From Burkholderiales bacterium (GTDB lineage: Bacteria > Pseudomonadota > Gammaproteobacteria > Burkholderiales > Casimicrobiaceae): 45,744 nucleotides of DNA. The notes below the pieces were generated by a model. The model ran no database searches, was not told where the DNA came from, and saw nothing but the letters and a program-made list of their open reading frames with translations. The translations under genes were made by a program, and so were the position numbers. Shown here piece after piece: positions 11,479 to 20,490 of this stretch (positions are counted from its first letter, which is position 1; each line of letters opens with the position of its first letter). The stretch is from positions 1 through 45,744 of the forward strand of contig JAICXH010000010.1 in the NCBI GenBank assembly GCA_025981645.1. Reading direction: 5' to 3'.

Positions 11479-11847
11479 CTACGACGCCATCGGCGCCTTG
11501 CGGTGTCCGTCGCGACCCATCGCCACCGCGAGAATCGCGAACAGGATGACGAGCAACCCGACGATCACCGCATTCGTCTGCGCGGCGCGACTGGTGACTC
11601 CGATGATCCACGACGAGAGCACCATCCAGATGCCGAGGAGCAGGTTGATCACCTCTTCCCAGGCCTGCGGCATCGACACCGCAATCGCCGAGAACACGAC
11701 GATCGCGACGCCGAGGATCCACGCATTCCACGAGGCCGCCATCTGCGCGCCCTCGTAACCGACTACCCACGGTGAGATGAGTAGCCATATACCGATCAGC
11801 AGATTGATCCAGTCCTGCCAACGTTGATGTCTTGTGACGTCTTTCAT
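11479..11847 (-). CDS. SPW repeat membrane protein
   Basis: A 122-residue inner-membrane protein with about four transmembrane helices arranged as two repeats. Each repeat has an INLLIGIWLLISPWVVG-like unit (ISPWVVGY first, a degenerate LSSWIIG second), the hallmark of the SPW-repeat family. The function of the family is not established. A full AGGAGG ribosome-binding site lies about eight bases before the ATG, suggesting strong translation. It is convergent with ogt and divergent from the MCE operon. No operon partner is visible. Confidence 0.88.
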   Translation of the reverse strand: MKDVTRHQRWQDWINLLIGIWLLISPWVVGYEGAQMAASWNAWILGVAIVVFSAIAVSMPQAWEEVINLLLGIWMVLSSWIIGVTSRAAQTNAVIVGLLVILFAILAVAMGRDGHRKAPMAS

Positions 11848-15705: not shown

Positions 15706-17077
15706 CCGGCCTTGCCTCGAGATCGTGCGCGTCGGAGCCGGTGACGACGACGCGTACGAACGAGCCCGGCTCGCACGCCGAGCCGTTGCGGACGCGAACG
15801 ACGCCGTCGATTTCCGGTGCATCGGCTGCCGAACGCGCGATCGCCATGCCGTCGTCGACGCGGTCGACGAGCACGTCCTCGATCCGCCCGACTTTGGCGG
15901 CGAGGCGCGAGGCGCTGATCTCCTCCTGGAGCGTCATCAGCCGCCCGCGGCGCTCCTCGCGCAGCGCATCCGGAACCGCATCCGGCAGTGCGTTCGCCGC
16001 CGCACCTTCGACCGGCGAGTAGGCGAAGCAGCCGACGCGATCGAGCGCCGCCTCGCGCAGGAACAGGAGCAGCTCGTCGAACTCTGCCTCGGTCTCGCCG
16101 GGAAAGCCCGCGATGAACGTGCTGCGCAGCACGATGCCCGGCCGCGACGCGCGCCACGCGCGGATGCGGTCCAACACCTTCTCTGGCGCGGCCGGCCGCT
16201 TCATCAGCCGCAGGATGCGCGGGCTCGCGTGCTGGAACGGGATGTCGAGGTAGGCGAGGAGGCCGCGATCGGTGGGCTTCTCGCACATCAGCGGAACGAT
16301 ATCGTCGACGTGCGGGTACGGATAGACGTAATGGAGCCGCACCCACGCATCGTGGGCGCGTGCGAGTGCGGCGAGCTCGCGTGCGAGCTCGGCTGCGCGC
16401 GTCTTCATCGGGCGGCCCTGCCAGAAGCCCGTGCGATAGCGCAGGTCGACGCCGTATGCGCTGGTGTCCTGCGACACGACGAGGAGCTCGCGCACGCCGG
16501 CACGGAACAGCCGCTCGGCTTCGCCGAGCACGTCGCCGAGTGCGCGCGACACGAGGTCGCCGCGCAGCGACGGGATGATGCAGAACGTGCAGCGGTGGTT
16601 GCAACCCTCGCTGACCTTGAGGTACGCGTAGTGCGCGGGTGTCAGCTTGACGCCGATGCCGGGTGCCCGCGGAACGAGGTCGACGAACGGGTCGTGAGGG
16701 ATCGGCAGGTGCGCGTGTACCGCGCGCATCACCTCCTCGGTCGCGTGCGGGCCGGTGACCGCGAGCACCTTCGGGTGCGCCGCGCGGACGAAGGCGCCAT
16801 CGTCGCGCGCGCCGAGGCCGCCAGTGACGATGACCTTCCCGTTCTCGGCGAGCGCCTCGCCGATCGTGCCGAGCGATTCGGCGACCGCGGCGTCGATGAA
16901 CCCGCAGGTATTGACGACGACGAGATCGGCCCCGGCGTACGAGGGCGACATTTCGTAGCCCTCGCTGCGAAGCTCGGTGAGGATGCGTTCGGAGTCGACG
17001 AGCGCCTTCGGACATCCGAGCGACACGAATCCGACCCGCGGCGCGGGGGCCGCGCGGCGCGACGTACGCACCGCCAT
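15632..17077 (-). CDS. rimO: Ribosomal protein S12 methylthiotransferase RimO
   Basis: RimO (481 aa) adds a methylthio group to an aspartate of ribosomal protein S12. It is a radical-SAM enzyme with two [4Fe-4S] clusters. The radical-SAM motif CNHRCTFC (Cys159, 163, 166), the [10 protein letters not shown] segment and a C-terminal TRAM domain are present. The N-terminal methylthiotransferase domain has Cys22 (SLGCPK) and Cys58 (NTCGFI). The third cluster cysteine, expected in VIVTGCLGA, reads VIVTGGLGA, so position 87 is Gly (codon GGC instead of TGC). The protein runs about 25 residues past the usual end with an Arg/Ser tail that overlaps the lipoprotein gene. Its ATG shares one base with the phaR stop (TGATG). 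Confidence 0.95.
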
Positions 17078-17643
17078 CAGCGCGAGCTGTCGTCCGGGGA
17101 CGCTGGAGGCGCGAAGCCGGGGAACGGGAATGCCGAGAAGATGCCGCGCGTCTGGTCATGCATGCGCTGCTGCATGTCCATGAACACGCGCGCGCTCTGC
17201 TCGAGATAGTTGCCGAGCATGCCCTGCATCGCAGGCGCCTGCATCTGCATGAACTGCTTCCACAGCTCCGGCGTCAGCATCATCTTGTCGCCGTAGACCT
17301 GCTTCGCCTGGTCCTGCAGCTTCTTCTGGATGGCGAGAAACGCCTGCACGTTCTGCTCGATGTACTGACCGATGATCGTCTGCTGGGCGCTGCCGTAGAA
17401 GCGGATCATCTGGATCAGCATCTCGGAGCTGAACATAGGCACTCCGCCGGATTCCGCTTCCAGGATGATCTGCAGAAGGATCGAGCGCGTCAGGTCTTCG
17501 TTGCTCTTCGCATCGACGACGCGGAATTCGATGCCATCCAGCACCATCTGCTTCACGTCGGCGACGGTGATGTAGCCGCTGTTCTCGGTGTCGTAGAGCC
17601 GGCGGTTCGGGTATTTCTTGATCGTGCGTACTTCGGAGGGCAT
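17077..17643 (-). CDS. phaR: PHA synthesis repressor PhaR
   Basis: PhaR (188 aa) is the DNA-binding regulator that represses phasin genes until PHA granules form and titrate it away. The N-terminal PHB_acc_N domain ([21 protein letters not shown]) binds DNA. Two PHB_acc repeats follow (around [14 protein letters not shown] and [15 protein letters not shown]), rich in Met and Gln, which contact granules. Length is normal. It is divergent from phaP, whose promoter lies between them and carries likely operator sequences. It is followed by rimO in a one-base overlap, an unexpected but clear co-transcription. Confidence 0.97.
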
Positions 17644-17727
17644 TGCGGGCTCCAGCGAGGTCGAGGGAGGATTTTAACCCTCTGATTTATAGGATGTTTG
17701 GAAAGTTCACCGGGACTTTGATGCGCT

Positions 17728-17785
17728 GCACAAAAAAGTGCTTGACTTACCGTTGCGTCGTCCCTACAATGGGTTTGTGCGGTGC
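17728..17785 (+). promoter_or_regulatory. phaP promoter and likely PhaR operator
   Basis: TTGACT (17742-17747) and TACAAT (17765-17770) are separated by exactly 17 bases, a strong sigma-70 promoter reading into phaP with a leader of about 135 bases. Immediately upstream of the -35 box lies the dyad GCAC-AAAAAA-GTGC (17728-17741). Just after the -10 box GTGC occurs twice more (17777-17780 and 17782-17785). In Ralstonia, PhaR binds around the phaP promoter, so these GTGC/GCAC elements are candidate operators. Promoter elements are seen; PhaR binding is inferred. Confidence 0.75.
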
Positions 17786-17913
17786 AGCAATCGACGGATT
17801 CCGAAGGCGGAACCGAAGAAGGCTCGAGCACCGATCGGGCGGGAAGCGGCGTTTCGACCGGGTCCTGCCACCAGGCAACGTCGGGGTGTTCCCGACCATT
17901 GAAAGGACTGATC

Positions 17914-18456
17914 ATGTACAACGCTGCCGAACAATTCTCCGCCCTCAACCAAGCTGGCGTCTCGAACGCGATCAAGCTCGCGTCGCTGTCGATCGAAAAC
18001 GCCGAGAAGCTGGTGCAACTCAACATCAATGCCGCCAAGACCGCGGTTGCACACGCTGTCGCAAGCGCGAAGGCGGCCGCTGCGGTGAAGGACGTGCAGG
18101 AACTGCTCGCGCTGCGCGCCAAGTTTGCCGAAGCCGGTGTCCAGAGCGCGACCGGTTACTCGCGCAACCTCTACGAGCTGTCGTCGGAAGCGCAAGCCGG
18201 CTTCTCGGCGTTCGCCGAGGAATCGTGGGCGTCGTACACCAAGGGCGTCGCGTCGTGGGTCGAGAACGCATCCAAGGCTGCCCCGGCAGGCTCCGACGTC
18301 GCGGTCAACGCGCTGAAGTCGACGTTCGCCGCTTCGACGGCCGCGTTCGACCAGTTCCAGAAGGCGACGCGCCAAGTCGTCGATCTCGCCGATGCCAACA
18401 TCCGCGCCGCGTCTGCCAACGCGACGAAAAACGGAAGCAAGGGCAAGCGCGCGTAA
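17914..18456 (+). CDS. phaP: Phasin (PHA granule-associated protein)
   Basis: A 180-residue phasin that coats polyhydroxyalkanoate granules and controls their size and number. The family pattern is clear: MYNAAEQFSALNQAGV, helical amphipathic core (IENAEKLVQLNINAAK, VQELLALRAKFAE), YSRNLYELSSEAQAGFSAF, and a basic, Ala/Lys-rich tail. No cysteines, soluble. ATG at 17914 follows AAGGA by about seven bases; an in-frame extension upstream lies in the leader and is not coding. Preceded by a strong promoter with likely PhaR sites. Followed by three hairpins and a Rho-independent terminator (18471-18583). Convergent with phaC. Confidence 0.95.
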   Translation: MYNAAEQFSALNQAGVSNAIKLASLSIENAEKLVQLNINAAKTAVAHAVASAKAAAAVKDVQELLALRAKFAEAGVQSATGYSRNLYELSSEAQAGFSAFAEESWASYTKGVASWVENASKAAPAGSDVAVNALKSTFAASTAAFDQFQKATRQVVDLADANIRAASANATKNGSKGKRA

Positions 18457-18470
18457 GCGCTACGCACCAT

Positions 18471-18583
18471 CGCGGTTCCGGCAGCGCCGGGGCCGCGTAA
18501 CAAGCTCCACTGTATCGATCTCCTCCTCCTGGTCGATACAGCCTCCAGACCCCACGGGCACCGCTCGCGGGGTCTTTCTTTTT
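18471..18583 (+). ncRNA. Candidate anti-Shine-Dalgarno small RNA in the phaP 3' region
   Basis: Three hairpins follow the phaP stop in a row. H1 (18471-18497) has a 12-bp stem, two pairs being G-U, with loop AGC. H2 (18510-18541) has nine Watson-Crick pairs (CTGTATCGA with TCGATACAG), then a U-G and a C-G pair, leaving the 10-base loop UCCUCCUCCU, fully complementary to AGGAGGAGGA. H3 (18548-18583) is an intrinsic terminator. Loops of this kind occur in alphaproteobacterial 'cuckoo' sRNAs such as the Rhodobacter CcsR RNAs, which carry CUCCUCC loops. No separate promoter is evident, so the RNA is probably released from phaP mRNA by processing. Structure is seen; sRNA identity is inference. Confidence 0.55.
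18548..18583 (+). terminator. Rho-independent terminator of phaP
   Basis: GACCCC (18548-18553) pairs with GGGGTC (18569-18574), with further inner CG and GC pairs around a short loop, and is followed directly by TCTTTCTTTTT-like pyrimidines (18575-18583). It ends the phaP transcript about 55 bases before the convergent phaC stop. Confidence 0.9.
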
Positions 18584-18639: not shown

Positions 18640-20490
18640 CTACTTGGCCGCAGCGAGCACGTACGTTCCGGGCGCCGGCCCGAGTGGCGGATACGCGGCA
18701 TTGCCCGCTGTCGACGGCGCCGCGCGCTTGCCGCCCTTGTGCTTCGCAAGCCATGCCTGCCAGTCGGGCCACCAGCTTCCGGGGTGACTGGTCGCGCGGG
18801 CGAGCCAAGCGTCGGCGTCGAGATCGGCCGTCGGCCGCGGACCCGTCCAGTAGTTGCGCTTGCCCGTCGCCGGCGGATTGACGACGCCGGCAATGTGGCC
18901 CGACGCGCCGAGCACAAAGCGCGGCTGCGTCCCGACGAGTCCGACGGTGCGCCACGCCGAGCGCCACGGCACGATGTGATCCTCGCGCGAAGCGTAGACG
19001 TACATCGGCATCGTCAGGCGGCGCAGGTCGATCGGCTGACCGAGCATCGTCAGCGCATCCGGTACGCGCAGTCGGTTGCCGATGTACATCTCGTTCAGGT
19101 AATACCAGTACATCGGTCCTGGCAGGTTGGCAGAATCGCCGTTCCAGTAGAGGAGGTCGAACGCCGGCGGCGTGCGTCCCTTCAGGTAGTTGTTGACGAC
19201 GTAGTTCCAGACGAGCTCATTCGGACGCAGGCTCGCGAACGCGCCGGCGAGCTCGCTGCCCGGCACGCGCTGGCCCGCACACAGGAGCGGCTTGCGCGCG
19301 TCGAGTGAGGCGGCCGAGATGTATACACCGATCTCGCCGGGGTCGGCGAAGTCGAGCATCGTGGTGAGGAAGGTCGCGCTCGTCACGCTGCGGTCGCCAC
19401 GCGCGGCGAGCACCGCGAGCGCACACGCGAGCAGCGTGCCGCCGACGCAGAAGCCCAGCGTGTTCACTTCCTTCGACGTCGAGATCGACTGCACCGCCGT
19501 GAGCGAGGCGAGTACGCCTTGTTCGAGGTAATCGTCCCAGGTGAGCGTCCCGAGTTCCTCGGGAATGTTGCGCCACGAGACGATGAACACCGTGTGCCCT
19601 TCGGCGACCGCGTGGCGGACGAACGAGTTGGCGGGCGTGAGATCGAGAATGTAGTACTTGTTGATGCAGGGCGGAATGACGAGCAGCGGGCACTTCGCGA
19701 CCTCGCGCGTCGTCGGCGAATACTGGATCAGCTCGATCAGCGGATTGCGCAGCACCACGGTTCCCGGCGTCACCGCGAGATTGCGGCCGATCGTGAACGC
19801 CGACTCGTCGCTCATCGTGATGCGACCCTTGGCGACGTCTTCGGCGAGGTTGTGCAGGCCCTGCACGAGGCTTGCGCCCTCGGTCGCGATTGCGCGGGCG
19901 ATCACGTCCGGGTTCGTCGCGGGAAAGTTCGACGGTGCCATCGCGTCGACGAACTGGCGCGTGGAGAACTCCAGCCGGCGCTTTTCCTCGGGAGGCAGTT
20001 GCGCGAGCGAAGAGAGTTCGGTCAGGTACTCGCCGTAGAGTTGCCACGCCTCGCGGACCCATGCGAACCACGGCTGCTCGCGCCACGCGGGCGAAGCGAA
20101 GCGGCGGTCTTCCGGCGCGGGACGCGGCGCATTGGAGGCGCGAGGCGCTCGATCGGCCGGGCGCGCCGCCGTGGCCGAAACACCCAAACCACTCGCGGCG
20201 CCTGCCCAGAGGCCGGCAAGGCGCGACGAGTAGCGCTCGTGCAGGCGCTTCAGCTCGTTGGCGTCGAACGGCGAGGGCTGCGCGGGCGCGACGCGCCGCT
20301 GCTCGCTCGAGGCGCGCGCGTGGCGTTCGTCACGATGTTCGCGCTGCGCAGCCGGCGCAGCGCCCACGGCGCCGGCCCACCACGCCGAGCACTCGGCGAA
20401 TGCGCGTTGCCAGTCGAGCGCGAGCTCGGTCCACGACTTGATCGACCACGGATCGGCGGATGCGGTGGATGCGGCGGGTTCGTGCTTCAT
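18640..20490 (-). CDS. phaC: Class I poly(3-hydroxyalkanoate) synthase
   Basis: PhaC (616 aa) polymerises (R)-3-hydroxyacyl-CoA into polyester at the granule surface. The lipase-like box GFCVGG places the catalytic nucleophile at Cys348. The general-base aspartate is in YASREDHIVPW and the histidine in GASGHIAGVVNPP. Other class I landmarks are KGRITMSDESAF, PPCINKYYILDL and WNYVVNNYL. Residues 40-130 form an Ala/Arg-rich variable N-terminal region. Its ATG overlaps the TGA of pgeF (ATGA), so it is the third gene of an rluD-pgeF-phaC run. No phaA or phaB follows; the gene is convergent with phaP. Confidence 0.97.
   Translation of the reverse strand: MKHEPAASTASADPWSIKSWTELALDWQRAFAECSAWWAGAVGAAPAAQREHRDERHARASSEQRRVAPAQPSPFDANELKRLHERYSSRLAGLWAGAASGLGVSATAARPADRAPRASNAPRPAPEDRRFASPAWREQPWFAWVREAWQLYGEYLTELSSLAQLPPEEKRRLEFSTRQFVDAMAPSNFPATNPDVIARAIATEGASLVQGLHNLAEDVAKGRITMSDESAFTIGRNLAVTPGTVVLRNPLIELIQYSPTTREVAKCPLLVIPPCINKYYILDLTPANSFVRHAVAEGHTVFIVSWRNIPEELGTLTWDDYLEQGVLASLTAVQSISTSKEVNTLGFCVGGTLLACALAVLAARGDRSVTSATFLTTMLDFADPGEIGVYISAASLDARKPLLCAGQRVPGSELAGAFASLRPNELVWNYVVNNYLKGRTPPAFDLLYWNGDSANLPGPMYWYYLNEMYIGNRLRVPDALTMLGQPIDLRRLTMPMYVYASREDHIVPWRSAWRTVGLVGTQPRFVLGASGHIAGVVNPPATGKRNYWTGPRPTADLDADAWLARATSHPGSWWPDWQAWLAKHKGGKRAAPSTAGNAAYPPLGPAPGTYVLAAAK

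Follow-up and report, generated by a model that had tools for sequence, protein, structure and literature searches.

The window analysed here, a stretch of 45,744 nucleotides from the MAG of an uncultured member of the Casimicrobiaceae (Burkholderiales), carries a group of PHB genes in which the phasin gene phaP is followed by three hairpins and then by phaC (Table 1). The sequence-only reading had described the middle hairpin as an 11-pair stem with a 10-base loop, followed six bases later by a terminator, and this description is exact by coordinates. The stem arms CTGTATCGATC (18510-18520) and GGTCGATACAG (18531-18541) form 11 pairs, one of them U-G, and enclose the loop at 18521-18530 (TCCTCCTCCT in DNA, UCCUCCUCCU in RNA), while the terminator consists of a hairpin at 18547-18575 and the subsequent TTTCTTTTT, which extends to 18583. 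The 161-nt region folds with -89.6 kcal/mol (z = -6.2), a value equalled by none of 200 shuffles, and the anti-Shine-Dalgarno (anti-SD) loop of the window copy is approximately 100% unpaired in the partition function. The 3'UTR of phaP thus probably encodes an anti-SD small RNA (sRNA) of about 75-82 nt, spanning approximately 18502-18583, with the AAGCUCCA segment probably forming the 5' part of the mature molecule. It is the single copy in its own genome, scoring 73.4 bits with the family covariance model (R1) against 18.4 bits for the next match.

Table 1. Features of the phaP locus in the window.
Feature	Position	Strand	Observation
phaR	17077-17643	-	PF07879/PF05233
phaP promoter, sigma70-type, TTGACT-N17-TACAAT	17742-17770	+	10/12 consensus bases; no promoter-like site closer to the hairpin
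phaP, phasin, host mRNA of the putative sRNA	17914-18456	+	Pfam PF09361 Phasin_2, E 4.4e-22
First hairpin, GC-rich, particular to the window genome	18471-18497	+	Folded; no conservation in relatives
5' single-stranded segment AAGCUCCA (CUCC, second anti-SD-like site)	18502-18509	+	Unpaired in the partition function; (U)CUCC kept in most relatives
Anti-SD hairpin, 11-pair stem	18510-18541	+	Compensatory changes; CUCCUCC in all 23 sequences
Linker CCUCCA, third CU-rich site	18542-18547	+	Consensus of relatives CCUC
Rho-independent terminator, common to phaP mRNA and the putative sRNA	18547-18583	+	Sequence and fold; compensatory changes in relatives
phaC, convergent with phaP	18640-20490	-	PF07167

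Conservation of the hairpin downstream of phaP

Orthologues of phaP were found in 50 of the 60-61 relatives searched. Comparison was made across 29 phasin loci (L002-L030) of the same family, all from Casimicrobiaceae-type betaproteobacterial MAGs, with minus-strand matches reverse-complemented. The canonical element, CUGUAUC...CUCCUCC...GAUACAG followed by a terminator, is present in 23 of these loci, and three more (L009, L013 and L023) carry a re-paired version in which loop and stem are kept with other stem letters; in L009 and L013 nearly the entire stem has been replaced with pairing retained. The stem and UCCUCC loop are therefore kept downstream of phaP in related genomes; their absence there would have refuted the sequence-only reading. 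The element is absent from two of the 29 loci (L011 and L016), and in one (L021) the contig stops too early to show it.

In an alignment of the 23 canonical sequences CUCCUCC is invariant. All but the inner stem pairs are retained, and the inner ones alternate among A-U, U-A, G-C and G-U, with 94.8% of the cells of the 11-pair stem remaining paired. Cells changed on both sides number 20; shuffles gave 6.6 +/- 2.0, and none of the 500 reached 20. Such counts are inflated by the relatedness of the sequences, but displacing the stem partners by 1-3 columns reduces pairing to 22-41%. The terminator hairpin also shows compensatory changes in relatives, and the linkage to phaP is constant among them while the genes further downstream vary. 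A chance hairpin is ruled out by this conservation and by the compensatory changes in the stem.

The association with phasins also emerged from a scan of 84,980 species with an exact pattern, composed of the loop and the outer stem, that makes no reference to phasins. It returned 20 matches in 19 stretches, all in betaproteobacterial MAGs; 19 of the matches follow a phasin gene, recognized either with a phasin profile or because the match is identical to a previously examined locus, and the remaining one is a tandem duplicate. By record title, two of the matches are named Casimicrobiaceae, and two, oddly labelled Aromatoleum sp. and Bordetella parapertussis, coincide with family-f1 loci. In one relative (G002, locus L111) a tandem second hairpin and terminator, with a different inner stem, lies 180 nt downstream.

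Promoters and settings of the RNA

The sequence CTTGAA-N13-15-CCCCATNT is the consensus of promoters recognized by sigma32 (RpoH). Of 24 family copies, 19 have a match to at least 10 of its 13 positions in the 3'UTR stretch that separates phaP from the stem. The match ends 8-34 nt short of the stem, and the summed motif score of 251 exceeds that of dinucleotide shuffles (181.9 +/- 3.8); the presence of a sigma32-type promoter just upstream of these copies is a new finding of this analysis. In the whole genome of one relative (G024), the perfect motif occurs three times, at the sRNA, at an hsp20 gene (small heat-shock protein) and at one small ORF, whereas in the window's own genome its one occurrence lies upstream of grpE-dnaK; a reversed-pattern control yielded no occurrence in either genome. 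Since perfect copies are located at hsp20 and grpE-dnaK and none were found with the reversed pattern, the motif is, on sequence grounds, a heat-shock promoter in this lineage. The third occurrence in G024 (C34:224115-224143, L128) lies 5' of an uncharacterised small ORF. With such a promoter before the stem, the putative sRNA can be synthesized separately in most relatives, under heat or protein stress.

The window copy is organized differently. The best candidates for a sigma32 motif, with 6 of 13 positions in the 3'UTR and 8 of 13 in the end of the phaP coding region, were rejected. Only 53 nt of 3'UTR precede the stem, compared with 119-120 nt in the closest relatives, and the first hairpin occupies the place of the relatives' sigma32 promoter region, where their 3'UTR sequence differs. 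As the window copy lacks a promoter of its own, its transcript must come from the phaP mRNA, starting at the phaP promoter as predicted from sequence. The proposal that the sRNA is released from a granule-protein mRNA is therefore probably correct for the window and for the leader-type copies described below; most family copies, by contrast, carry a sigma32-type promoter of their own.

TGC/GCA palindromes that resemble PhaR operators (TGCGCTGCACAAAA and TTTGTGCGGTGCAGCA, window 17722-17789) lie on either side of the phaP promoter, and TGCTGCACYGCACAA is also present 5' of phaP in relatives. PhaR vacates such operators once PHB forms, so that release of the RNA would be tied to storage.

The covariance model of the family RNA also matches in other families of the order, and many of these matches represent a second form. 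In this form (G)UCUCCUCCUCC lies in the 5' leader and runs into a CCUUUAUC...GAUAAAGG stem, followed by a terminator. A model of this leader-type form (R2) was applied at E up to 1e-5. Within the order it matched 58 of 300 genomes, 14 of them having supplied training sequences, and outside the order it matched two of 232 genomes drawn from the class, both apparently unrelated. Eighteen of its 30 best loci, distributed over seven other families, start 3-46 nt after a phasin stop codon; the remainder of these 30 have no recognizable adjoining phasin. R2 also detects the family form (G024, 32.4 bits), so that the two forms cross-detect; part of this signal comes from the CU-rich loop and terminator, and their common descent is likely rather than proven. 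No promoter, the sigma32 motif included, was found for the phasin-linked leader-type copies. Three free-standing copies of family f42 with no adjoining phasin (L095, L102 and L103) carry strong sigma70 promoters, TTGACA-N17-TAAYMT, 69-81 nt upstream; in other genera of f42 the RNA is hosted by phaP. Judged from its sequence contexts, one and the same RNA thus occurs in three settings: processed from the phaP mRNA, driven by sigma32 within the phaP 3'UTR, and free-standing.

These observations also bear on whether the element might be merely the 3' end of the phaP mRNA, a terminator with a protective hairpin that stabilizes an abundant message and has no activity in trans. Phasin mRNAs are abundant and hairpins before terminators protect 3' ends, which, together with the missing promoter of the window copy, lends this explanation some weight. 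A loop of fixed sequence is not required for protection, but CUCCUCC stays unchanged as the stem sequence turns over; moreover, in most relatives a promoter separates phaP from the hairpin, and related copies are free-standing, including the three with sigma70 promoters. A role confined to the 3' end is thus considered unlikely, and a trans-acting anti-SD sRNA is the preferred interpretation.

Proposed action and predicted targets

In the mechanism proposed for the window copy, the sRNA would be cut from the 3' end of the phaP mRNA before the stem, probably by RNase E by analogy with S17 and CcsR, and would be bound by Hfq, a gene for which is present. The loop and the flanking CUCC sites would then pair with strong AGGAGG ribosome-binding sites (RBSs) and, during storage granule formation, prevent the translation of a group of mRNAs in which uptake transporters are likely to be enriched. 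The strong RBSs that the sequence-only reading had pointed out before three window genes were confirmed: AGGAGG before the gene for an SPW-domain protein at 11847(-), AAGGAGG before 38558 and GGAGGA before 36714. Pairing of the loop with these sites, the strongest in the window, is predicted at -12.7 kcal/mol for a peptide ABC transporter binding protein (36714, PF00496), -12.5 kcal/mol for a peptide ABC transporter permease (38558, PF00528) and -11.7 kcal/mol for the SPW protein; such energies alone are weak evidence for a target, since any strong Shine-Dalgarno site would be a partner for the loop and 1.5% of random window segments reach -12. Regulation of these genes by the sRNA is a prediction.

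The loop might instead act in cis, pairing with the Shine-Dalgarno site of phaP or of a neighbouring pha gene as a feedback on storage, in the manner suggested by alphaproteobacterial MmgR, which lowers the levels of the PhaP1 and PhaP2 proteins (PMC8401924). The predicted pairing with the start regions in the window is weak, at -4.1 (phaP), -5.6 (phaR) and -9.8 kcal/mol (phaC), and such an action is judged improbable. A function of the opposite strand, by which read-through from convergent phaC/phaB would show AGGAGGAGGA in the loop and bind CsrA-type proteins or decoy 16S rRNA, is less probable still: the loop is rich in GGA when read as its reverse complement, and the downstream gene is convergent both in the window, where it is phaC, and in many relatives, but the T-run, the sigma32 promoters and the stem G-U pairs fit the plus strand only, and it is the phaP link that persists between relatives as the downstream genes vary.

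Returning to the anti-SD sRNA, a broader scenario may be put forward tentatively. A phasin-embedded RNA with two inputs, release from the phaP mRNA at granule formation and sigma32-driven synthesis under protein stress, could make carbon storage and heat shock triggers of a broad repression of mRNAs with strong Shine-Dalgarno sites across much of the Burkholderiales, the same RNA having moved between free-standing and gene-hosted forms in evolution. If this is true, the mRNA for a coat protein of storage granules is at the same time the source of a broad translational regulator, and betaproteobacteria would have an RNA that connects carbon storage directly with protein synthesis, with the sigma32 promoter of most relatives adding a stress input. 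An RNA family that is both phaP-hosted and free-standing would also be a good case for the interconversion of sRNA genes and mRNA 3' ends. Literature searches, confined to open-access papers, turned up no description of an sRNA associated with a phasin gene in betaproteobacteria. The riboregulation of PHB in Cupriavidus necator was described as undeciphered in a 2021 review (PMC8401924), and a phasin-hosted anti-SD sRNA provides a concrete candidate type for it.

Relation to known anti-SD and storage-linked RNAs

At gathering score, no Rfam 15 family was matched in the window or in its relatives, and a relaxed search gave only sub-threshold matches, most of them implausible. With the RF02278 model (gathering score 50 bits), there was no window match at E up to 10, copies from relatives scored 17-28 bits, below the gathering score, and no match over threshold was obtained in 9 + 12 further loci. 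The MmgR model RF00519 (suhB/mmgR) gave 12.1 bits against a threshold of 41.

The closest likeness is nevertheless to RF02278 (Betaproteobacteria toxic small RNA, comprising Burkholderia ncS03/05/27/62) and to S17 of Bordetella pertussis, from the same bacterial order. These RNAs also consist of two hairpins, the second of which is the terminator, with CU-rich RBS-complementary sites in the 5' leader and first loop, and the window element shows this architecture, including the unpaired anti-SD CU-rich sites. It differs in its longer and distinct stem (CUGUAUC...GAUACAG), in its phaP host and, in relatives, in the sigma32 promoter. Another trait of RF02278 is that over-expression inhibits growth. 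S17 is released from a longer RNA through cleavage by RNase E and associates with Hfq (PMC11722255; double-hairpin RNAs, PMC5688073). It acts by RBS occlusion, and transporters are prominent among its targets (PMC11722255); ncS27 likewise acts by RBS occlusion, and the predicted targets of the Burkholderia double-hairpin RNAs include transporters (PMC5688073). The targets of S17 and ncS27 are largely related to transport and metabolism, and the best pairings predicted in the window similarly include transporter genes.

The window's own genome contains a second, separate anti-SD sRNA before rplM, of S17/RF02278 type (G000:C14:12190-12251, L047; 34 bits against an Rfam threshold of 50), which could extend RF02278. 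Relatives of this RNA occur in L041-L045 and L048-L050, before rplM in L042 and L045. In another genome of the order (G043) anti-SD sRNAs have expanded, with 13 matches to RF02278.

The sequence-only reading had seen in the element the architecture of the cuckoo type exemplified by CcsR. The anatomy of an anti-SD sRNA with its own terminator held, but the nearest kin proved to be RF02278/S17: the DUF1127 linkage of the cuckoo RNAs is absent, the host gene being a phasin (PF09361), and a tandem pair was seen in one relative. Like the putative phasin-linked sRNA, CcsR1-4 of Rhodobacter sphaeroides are anti-SD hairpin sRNAs situated where a protein-coding gene ends; they are transcribed from an RpoHI/RpoHII promoter and processed by RNase E (PMC10253847). 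An RpoH-type promoter, as known from cuckoo RNAs, is present in 19 of 24 family copies and absent from the window copy. sRNAs derived from 3'UTRs use the terminator of their host mRNA and arise from an internal promoter or through processing; for the phasin element, a terminator common with the host mRNA and, in relatives, the promoter anatomy are seen. On the other hand, CcsR is a four-RNA cluster with a DUF1127 gene in alphaproteobacteria, in contrast to the usually single copy with a phasin gene described here, and in relatives of the phasin element the sigma32 promoter sits between the gene and the sRNA.

By analogy, the phasin-hosted sRNA would work like the betaproteobacterial RF02278/S17 RNAs and the alphaproteobacterial CcsR and MmgR. 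The last of these, a 77-nt Hfq-dependent sRNA of Sinorhizobium meliloti, is connected with PHB storage and with the levels of phasin protein (PMC8401924). The two share this connection with PHB storage and phasins; MmgR is a separate gene that regulates phasins, whereas here the RNA lies within the phasin gene itself.
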